A stretch of DNA of 60,670 nt from Candidatus Poribacteria bacterium (GTDB lineage Bacteria; Poribacteria; WGA-4E; WGA-3G), in the NCBI GenBank assembly GCA_026702755.1, contig JAPPBX010000054.1, positions 1 to 60,670 on the forward strand, read 5' to 3'. Both the position numbers and the translations under genes were made by a program. The notes beneath the pieces were generated by a model. It was not told the origin of the DNA. It saw nothing but the letters and a program-made list of their open reading frames with translations, and searched no databases. Below are positions 7,206 to 60,670 of this stretch, piece by piece; position 1 is the stretch's first letter; each line of letters starts with the position of its first letter.

Positions 7206-7944
7206 AGCCGTGGTGAGGTGTTTTGTGTTTTCCAAAGTGCCCTCTTATTTTCGGGTTTTACTATAGTTTCAATGAGGCGTGTTTGAAGAATCGTATTGGG
7301 TTCTGCAGAGATGGTCTGCTGTGTGCTAACGATTCAAATACGTTATGGGTATATTATAGCATATATATTAACATTTGTAAAGTTAAAACAAATTTAGTTA
7401 TTAAGTTGGGTTTTAGTAGAACTTGTAATTGCTTATACACCAACGCAAGGGTGCCCCTTCCCGTAAAACACAAATTATGCATTTTTTTTCCCGGCTTTGC
7501 CCGCGAACGCCCTAAAAAAAGTCTTTTATATAACGTGAACTTGATAATAAAAATTGGGATATGACCGTAGGTTGGGTTGAGCGGTAAAAGACTAAAAAGT
7601 CCCCAGTTATACCGAGAACCCCCATGTGCCATAAACCCTTCCTGGAGATAAATATAGCGAAACCCAACAATCCACTCAAGTGTCGATAATGCGTTGGGTT
7701 TCACTGGGTTCTTGGCTGTATGTGCGGATATATGAGGTCTGATGTTCTTTGGGAGACCGGCATCTGATTTTCAACACCGTTCAACCCAACCTACAAGAAC
7801 CCATCTCTTTTATCAAACTCACGTTTTTATATAGTATGGGATTGTGATTTATGACATTTTTTGCATTTTATGCACGAAAAGGGCTTAAAAAAGGAGTCTA
7901 TATAAGTATAAAGATGTTCATGTCCAGCAGATGAAAGGGAGATT
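7206..7944. repeat. Intergenic stretch with repeat fragments, no convincing gene
   Basis: This AT-rich gap holds no gene I can support. About 7254-7271 and 7410-7457 carry fragments of a dispersed repeat (TAGTARAAC-type box, then GTAATT, TTATA, ACCAACGCAAGGG) also seen near 19101-19137 and 60597-60620. Around 7568-7580 is a GTAGGTTGGGTTGA box seen again near 59661. At 7871-7882 lies TGCACGAAAAGG, whose reverse complement recurs upstream of the second sigma-54 promoter (60416-60427). Confidence 0.5.
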
Positions 7945-8894
7945 ATGGCGTTACAGACCGAATTTGAGACGAACCATTCCTTTGGTGAAATCATCGGCAA
8001 AAGCGAAAAGATGCAGCAGGTGTTCGCCGAGATTCGAGTGGCGGCAACAGGCGATATTAGCGTCCTGATTCAAGGCGAAACCGGGACCGGTAAAGAACTG
8101 GTCGCAAAATCAATACACGATAACAGCCCGCGAAAAGCACGCCCTTTCGTTGGGATTAATTGTGCTGCGATACCAGCCGACTTGATTGAAAGTGAGTTAT
8201 TTGGCCATGAGCACGGAGCTTTCACCGGGACAATTGAGCAGCGGATCGGATATTTTGAACAAGCGAACCCCGGAACGCTTTTTCTTGATGAAATTGGGGA
8301 TATGCCACACACTTTGCAAAAGAAGTTGCTGCGTGTATTAGAAGAACGCGAATTTCAGAGGCTTGGTTACTGGCTGCTACGAATCAGGATTTAGATAATG
8401 CTATGAGAGAGGGACGTTTCCGTCCGGACTTGTACTATCGACTTGCGGCGTTTCGCATCATGGTTCCGCCGCTGAGAGAACGGCGCGAAGATATTCCTAT
8501 CTTGGCACATCATTTCTTGGAAAAATTTGCCGCAGATGCCAAAAAACCCATGCGCACCATTTCTGATGATGCCTTACACGTGTTGATGCAGCATGACTTC
8601 CCCGGCAACGTGCGCGAACTGAAACACGCCATTGAAAGTGCTGTTTTGCGTGAGACGACAGACCAGCTGCAACGAAAGAGTCTCCCACCGCATCTGACAC
8701 AAGAGGGTTCACAAGCCGCTACAAGCGACCCGACGGATACCACCGATATTCTTACGCTTAAGGAAGCTGAACGGAGAGCCATTATCCAAGCACTCGAAGC
8801 GACGGACGGTAATATCCCCGATGCAGCGCGGGCGTTGCGCATCGGTAGATCCACACTTTATCGGAAATTGGAGAAATATAACCTGCGACCGTAA
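7945..8894 (+). pseudogene. Sigma-54-dependent activator (NtrC-type AAA+), frameshifted
   Basis: Two frames (7945-8394 and 8403-8894) together make one bacterial enhancer-binding protein. The first has Walker A GETGTGKE (residues 44-51), the sigma-54 contact loop GAFTGT (91-96; canonical GAFTGA) and Walker B TLFLDE (111-116). The second has REGRFRPDLYYRL, the arginine-finger region and a C-terminal Fis-type helix-turn-helix (DAARALRIGRSTLYRKLEKY). At ~8361-8366 roughly 31 bases are missing compared with the family: RLG is followed directly by the out-of-frame codons for [16 protein letters not shown]. This removes the strand before sensor I and shifts the frame. There is no receiver or other sensing domain before the AAA+ core. 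It is a real decay or an assembly error. Confidence 0.85.
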
Positions 8895-8898
8895 AAAT

Positions 8899-9007
8899 GT
8901 TGTCTCAATATGGGATACTGTTTCATATTGAGACAACACGCCGGAACCTGCTTTATCACAGGCTTTGAAACCTACACTGCTTCCAAATGTGTTCCATTTT
9001 GGGACAC
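8899..9007 (+). promoter_or_regulatory. Candidate upstream activator sites for sigma-54 activator
   Basis: A perfect 14-bp inverted repeat (arms 8899-8912 and 8924-8937, 11-base loop) starts 5 bases after the activator gene. It lacks a T-run, so it is not a standard terminator. Its left half, TGTCTCAATATGGGATAC (8901-8918), resembles TGTTCCATTTTGGGACAC at 8990-9007 (13 of 18 identical), itself a near-palindrome. Both lie 110-220 bp upstream of the -24 box, the usual place for enhancer sites bound by NtrC-type proteins. Confidence 0.5.
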
Positions 9008-9120: not shown

Positions 9121-9136
9121 TGGCACGATTTTTGCT
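9121..9136 (+). promoter_or_regulatory. Sigma-54 (-24/-12) promoter
   Basis: The sequence TGGCACG-N4-TTGCT matches the RpoN consensus at all key positions. GG is at 9122-9123 and GC at 9134-9135 with exactly 10 bases between them. The predicted start is near 9147, about 120 bases before the cysteine-rich peptide gene. No other gene lies between. Confidence 0.85.
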
Positions 9137-59930: not shown

Positions 59931-60341
59931 ATGAAACATATCTATCACAAAGAAGATGCCGAAGTCGTACGAATTGAAGGCGAGGCACCGCGCACCTTAT
60001 ACACCCTCGTTGAACCGAATACCGTTGGTACTGAACATTTCTCAATGGGGTTAGAAGAGGTTGACCCCAATAGCGAGATTCCTATGCACTCACACAGCGA
60101 AGCGGAAGAGATTATTTTTGTCTATGGTGGACAAGGGAAGGCGTATGTCGGTGATGAAGTCGCCGACCTAAAACCCGGCACGGTGATCTATCTCCCACCG
60201 AATGTCGAACACCGCTTTGTCAACACAGGCGATGAACCGCTCTGGATCACGTGGACGCTTTCACCACCCGGCTTTGAGAAGCAGATTCGACGGATTGCAG
60301 ACGGCTCCGCCGGAATGGAAGTTTTCAGCGAATCTGAGTAA
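59931..60341 (+). CDS. Small cupin-domain protein
   Basis: The product is 136 aa with GGAGGGA before the ATG. One cupin domain: motif 1 is IPMHSHSEAEEIIFVYGGQGKAYVGDEVADL, seen across ~residues 50-80 (H-x-H and a Glu as metal ligands), and motif 2 is PPNVEHRFVNTGDEP with a final His. It is a metal-binding small-molecule sensor or enzyme; no substrate can be inferred. Confidence 0.9.
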   Translation: MKHIYHKEDAEVVRIEGEAPRTLYTLVEPNTVGTEHFSMGLEEVDPNSEIPMHSHSEAEEIIFVYGGQGKAYVGDEVADLKPGTVIYLPPNVEHRFVNTGDEPLWITWTLSPPGFEKQIRRIADGSAGMEVFSESE

Positions 60342-60670
60342 AAAATCTCTGAAACGTCAGTGCTGAAGATTTGTTAAGTCTGCCCCATTTTGTGCATGAG
60401 GGTATGAAATATGTACCTTTTCGTGCAGCATTTTCCGAAAGTATGGCGAAAACCCCGTCAATATAGTAGTATTCAGACTGGCACGCTATTTGCTAAGGTT
60501 TTTATAAGGTAAGAAATTCCTGCATTGTGAGATGAAAATATTGCACCTTTTTTGCCCCTAAAGTGCGTCACTTAAGGAACGCCACAGATATTTATAGTAA
60601 AACCTACAATTAATTGAGGGTGTTTCATAAATCATTAATATTCTATCGAAAGACAGTTTTAATGTGTGTG
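60342..60670 (+). promoter_or_regulatory. Terminal intergenic region with second sigma-54 promoter
   Basis: The -24/-12 element TGGCACG-N4-TTGCT lies at 60479-60494 (GG at 60480-60481, GC at 60492-60493, 10 bases between). Upstream TGCCCCATTTTGTGCATG (60381-60398) resembles the candidate activator box at 8990-9007 (CCATTTTG core), and ACCTTTTCGTGCA (60415-60427) contains the complement of TGCACGAAAAGG at 7871-7882. Repeat fragments (TAGTAAAACCT) are near 60597. The controlled gene lies beyond the window. Confidence 0.75.

Follow-up and report, generated by a model that had tools for sequence, protein, structure and literature searches.

A recurrent two-box sigma-54 enhancer-promoter unit at a Candidatus Poribacteria contig end and its predicted regulon of mainly envelope-type genes

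The window studied here (the whole stretch of DNA that was analysed, 60,670 bp) is the entire contig C54 of a 5.8-Mb Candidatus Poribacteria genome assembled in 126 contigs. Near its end, the 3' end of a cupin gene (59931-60341; Cupin_2, E=1.7e-18) marks the upstream limit of a regulatory region. This region holds, all on the + strand like the cupin gene, a distal box (60381-60396), a proximal box (60412-60427), a sigma-54 promoter (60479-60494) and a leader motif (60540-60577), followed by the left end of a MITE (60595-60615) and by the end of an IS nested in that MITE (60616-60670), where the contig stops. The same cupin gene precedes the region in genomes G017, G015, G001 and G007, and also in G006 and G020, which lack the sigma-54 module. 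No structured RNA with an Rfam match was found in the window, and the end region folds no better than its shuffles (z=-0.24).

The initial annotation had placed a second TGGCACG-N4-TTGCT sigma-54 promoter at 60479, with a box upstream, and both elements stand. The -24/-12 sequence TGGCACGCTATTTGCT is an exact match and also fits TGGCAC-N5-TTGCW, including its GG and GC. The pattern has exactly two sites in the window, 9121 and 60479, and 17 in the genome, against one for the reversed-pattern control; the -24/-12 words of the 60479 promoter are kept in four relatives. Upstream, CCATTTTGTGCA lies at 60385-60396 with 82 bp between its end and the promoter. It was also noted that the 12-mer TGCACGAAAAGG at 7871-7882 (+) recurs at 60416-60427 on the other strand. 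The recurrence is real, but the link drawn from it to the 7871 locus fails. On the + strand, the 12-mer at 60416 belongs to a second, direct copy of the CCATTTTG box, 31 bp further on. From 44 promoters of other genomes we built a matrix, thus independent of the window, that gives the box consensus TGCCC[CGT][AT]TTT[TC]GTGCAG, an imperfect palindrome of the form TGCCC-N6-GTGCA. Scored with this matrix, the distal box (TGCCCCATTTTGTGCA, 25.0 bits) and the proximal box (TGTACCTTTTCGTGCA, 20.9 bits) are the two best sites of the whole window, and surrogate sequences of the window yielded no site of at least 20 bits. Both boxes are kept at the orthologous loci of four relatives. The proximal box ends 51 bp before the -24/-12 promoter.

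Could the 9121 and 60479 promoters answer to one regulator through related boxes? Both match TGGCACG-N4-TTGCT, and CCATTTTG is found in both upstream regions. However, the site at 8990-9007, which had been likened to the 60385 box, is an unrelated palindrome, GTGTTCCATTTTGGGACAC, that scores -5.0 bits with the box matrix, and the 7871 12-mer reaches 2.7 bits, both far from the scores of the 60-kb boxes. At 9121, the promoter is accompanied by a palindromic site that adjoins the promoter's own activator gene, an arrangement that is kept in relatives, where the palindrome can change and stay symmetric (GTGTTGCATTTTGCGACAC in G007) and the activator is intact. The proposed likeness of the two boxes is thus abandoned, and a regulator shared by the two loci is very improbable. 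In the window itself, the activator gene (7945-8894) is frameshifted; its orthologues in G001, G005, G007 and G017 are intact and encode 326-338 aa. Just past the broken gene lies a near-perfect inverted repeat (8900-8938, GTTGTCTCAATATG...CATATTGAGACAAC), which is terminator-like or a second site. A dispersed repeat at about 7847-7916 (GATTTATGACATTTTTT.CATTTTATGCACGAAA...TCTATATAAG) has copies of about 90% identity here and in related genomes, often located before genes, and looks promoter-like. The 7871 12-mer falls within this repeat and has no sigma-54 promoter near it, which rules out the regulatory role considered for it.

The unit at the window end is one of many. The genome has 20 copies of the box word CCWTTTYGTGCA and three of its reversed control. 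Of the 20, 13 stand at set distances from a strong sigma-54 match (10 of 12 or better): eleven at 63-65 and 93-96 bp, one at 72 bp and one at 83 bp. Among the 17 exact promoters, six have two strong boxes, one has weak ones and ten, including 9121, have none. Across the genus, GTGCA-N49..56-TGGCAY-N5-TTGC is present in 38 of 38 genomes, with 219 matches (summed over the per-genome table for these 38) against four for the reversed control. The enrichment of boxes near other sigma-54 promoters, on which the initial annotation had staked its proposal, is borne out by these counts. Spacing is regular as well. In 34 of 44 tandem cases the two boxes are 31 bp apart (range over all cases 30-33), which is three helical turns. 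Gaps between proximal box and promoter fall mainly at 50-53 bp, and smaller clusters lie at 29, 38-39 and 59-63 bp. Regularity of this kind is expected of sites that are read from one face of the DNA. The layout expected of an enhancer, with specific sites repeated in helical phase some 80-200 bp upstream, is found here in the tandem and in gaps near helical-turn steps.

Units before unrelated genes resemble one another in the spacer as well (68-73% vs 37-39% when shuffled), and the homology fades upstream of -120 and past about +100. Together with the presence of the unit at the TPR locus in five genomes and its absence in at least two, this would fit a small dispersed repeat or mobile element of about 120 bp, carrying a chance sigma-54-like sequence and serving no regulon. 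However, all units examined in this genome face an ORF start, within about 60-530 bp, and the boxes and -24/-12 elements are more conserved than the spacer. Spacer classes vary among gene groups while the boxes stay constant, spacings in genus g11 shift by about whole helical turns, and no terminal repeats were seen on the unit. A mere repeat is therefore improbable. The 60381-60494 segment is probably a sigma-54 enhancer-promoter of functional type that belongs to a shared regulon.

A scan of 84,980 species genomes with the exact pattern returned 14 stretches, all from Poribacteria, and Candidatus Poribacteria MAGs are the nearest named relatives that carry the motif. Promoters with boxes are found in four genera of one family, g1, g12, g13 and g11; the assignment of g13 is by pattern counts, some of which fall by eye in WD40-type coding sequence, so that true units are fewer than the count. 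An apparent absence of boxes from g11 was an artefact of the fixed-gap pattern, as this genus has the same tandem boxes at other gaps. Other Poribacteria families, f2-f4 included, are near control level for the box pattern, except for four matches to the pattern string in G039. The cupin/TPR locus has the unit in G000, G001, G007, G015 and G017 but lacks it in G006 and G020; in G003 the unit was not found. Because five genomes have it and two lack it at the same locus, the unit has been gained or lost between genomes.

What lies downstream of the 60479 promoter is seen in four relatives, in which the unit is followed by the leader and then by the gene for an exported TPR protein. In G001, a TnpB/IS200-605-type insertion (L060, G001:C13) lies 3' of the promoter, between it and the TPR gene. 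In our genome the counterpart, 94% identical, starts at C63:187 and encodes an exported protein of 2937 aa. It is followed on C63 by genes for a 494-aa protein without a Pfam match, MoxR, DUF58 and BatA/VWA (AAA_3 4.7e-62, DUF58 2e-39, BatA 2e-14). The small exported peptide or further cassette that had been anticipated beyond the contig end thus gives way to a giant TPR protein heading a MoxR-type operon.

The interval between promoter and TPR gene is an insertion hot spot. The MITE (left TIR TAGTAAAACC, TA target duplication at 60593-60594) has a left end that recurs across the genome; its site is empty (GATATTTAAATTTGC) in G015 and G007 and filled in G017 and G001. The nested IS has the TIR GAGGGTGTTTCATAAAT and an 8-bp duplication, AATTAATT. 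The last 62 bp or so of the window also terminate at least ten other contigs of the assembly, and a mirror IS end with the same 8-bp duplication opens C63. From synteny and the shared duplication, we infer the join C54-IS-C63. The contig broke because the IS nested in the MITE sits between promoter and gene; both elements would thus separate the two here, and the 60479 promoter would be the putative driver of the C63 gene. The leader motif, ATTGCACC-T6-GCCCCTAAAGTGCGTCACTTAAGG (also written ATTGCACC-T6-GCCCCTAAAGTGCGTCACT), is kept in relatives, and at the TPR locus even where there is no sigma-54 module (G006 L282, G020 L289). A degenerate form with the AAAGTGYGTCACT part only lies downstream of the promoter of the MoxR operon on C59. 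The motif is perhaps a second regulatory site. G007 has a separate insertion of about 120 bp in its leader.

The genes behind other units give the predicted regulon its character. A second operon with adjacent MoxR AAA_3, DUF58 and BatA/VWA genes, the arrangement already seen on C63, stands behind the unit at C59 (AAA_3 1.3e-60, DUF58 3.4e-47, BatA 1.1e-14). DUF4159 proteins are encoded behind units at C48 (three similar genes in a row) and C122 (one), a VWA/YfbK-like protein at C112, YCF48-like beta-propellers at C37, C38 and C95, a PD40 beta-propeller protein at C38, and a LamG-like protein at C83 (recognised by sequence, with no Pfam match). In relatives, units also precede genes read from their sequence, without Pfam, as phytanoyl-CoA-dioxygenase-like and WD40-like. 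The predicted targets are mainly exported or envelope-type proteins, and some, such as the phytanoyl-CoA-dioxygenase-like ones, are not obviously of the envelope.

RNA polymerase with RpoN waits at -24/-12 promoters until an upstream-bound enhancer-binding ATPase opens the DNA. RpoN is encoded here at C96:49511, and in all six genomes checked. Besides the frameshifted activator of the window, the genome has 12 intact enhancer-binding activators. The single-contig genome G084 has box-pattern matches, yet of the activator classes compared it has only six, five of which are also found outside the family. The sixth, the C124 class, is present in all 13 family genomes compared and, among the matches listed (to about E=4e-21), not outside it. 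The C124 class is favoured because it alone of the six in G084 is family-limited among those matches. Its member here (G000:C124:17182-) has 486 aa, no receiver, a GSFTGA loop and a Fis HTH; no box lies near its gene. By phylogenetic profile only, a C124-class activator is the best candidate for the regulator of the boxes, and we put the chance that it is the regulator at about even.

Alternatively, the boxes may belong to a universal two-component activator that was rewired, either the NtrC-like C15 or C32, C94, C96 or C106. Each of these five would fit if one had been rewired, in which case a kinase signal, such as one of nitrogen status, would control the regulon. Every family genome that bears boxes and is listed in full has all five, and the C15 gene adjoins a sensor-kinase-like gene. 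The half-sites (TGCMC, GTGCA) and the three-turn tandem resemble the NtrC enhancers of enteric bacteria. The consensus of these, TGCACCAnnnTGGTGCA (PMC8743547, PMC4987338), is likewise an imperfect palindrome with TGC.C/G.GCA half-sites. At glnAp2, NtrC sites also stand in tandem, whole turns apart, upstream of a -24/-12 promoter. However, the Poribacteria box does not fit that consensus: it spans 16 positions rather than 17, its centre is one base shorter, and its left half is TGCCC rather than TGCAC. Unlike the enteric sites, it keeps a fixed gap of 50-53 bp to the promoter, and its regulator is a candidate only. Families f2-f4, in which the box pattern stays at control level, have the five activators too. 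No nitrogen-assimilation-like target, as an NtrC regulon would have, was found among the genes behind units, which are MoxR, BatA, DUF4159, TPR and beta-propeller genes. A rewired activator is less likely than not.

Whichever activator is involved, the unit, its conservation and recurrence, the RpoN gene and the downstream genes can be read directly in the genomes, and from them we infer, as the best explanation, the following mechanism. A sigma-54 activator would bind both boxes on one face of the DNA, three turns apart, where they could seat it as it oligomerises. Looping would then bring it to the RpoN-RNA polymerase that waits at the promoter, and ATP hydrolysis by the activator would open the promoter. 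In this way, scattered operons could respond to one signal. More tentatively, and as a scenario to which we give well under an even chance, a lineage-restricted, receiver-less activator of the C124 type may have arisen in one Poribacteria family with a portable enhancer-promoter module. This module would have been copied before many unlinked envelope genes and gained or lost between species, tying several MoxR/VWA/DUF4159 systems into a family-specific regulon.

A survey of sigma-54 regulation (Francke et al., 2011, PMC3162934) found that sigma-54 and several activators govern mainly functions of the surface and envelope; its text mentions neither Poribacteria nor MoxR. Our predicted targets share the emphasis on the cell exterior and envelope, whereas they are MoxR/VWA/BatA, DUF4159 and TPR genes rather than those for exopolysaccharide, flagella and lipopolysaccharide precursors. 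The operons on C63 and C59 are like MoxR-DUF58-BatA (Bat, aerotolerance) operons in containing AAA_3 MoxR, DUF58, BatA/VWA and TPR genes. They differ in that two copies and unlinked DUF4159/VWA genes stand under one sigma-54 box, and in the 2937-aa TPR protein as first gene. Literature text searches returned no paper on sigma-54 control in Poribacteria; they gave one incidental paper for the phylum with sigma-54 and none for it with an enhancer-binding protein. The mechanism is an ordinary one; the motif and its family-wide regulon appear undescribed.

Poribacteria are abundant sponge symbionts. The box would provide a precise handle on surface genes that are switched together in these bacteria, and it links MoxR-BatA operons, DUF4159 proteins and giant TPR proteins in one predicted regulon. 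With the box known, a single protein and a single DNA fragment would suffice to test the regulator.
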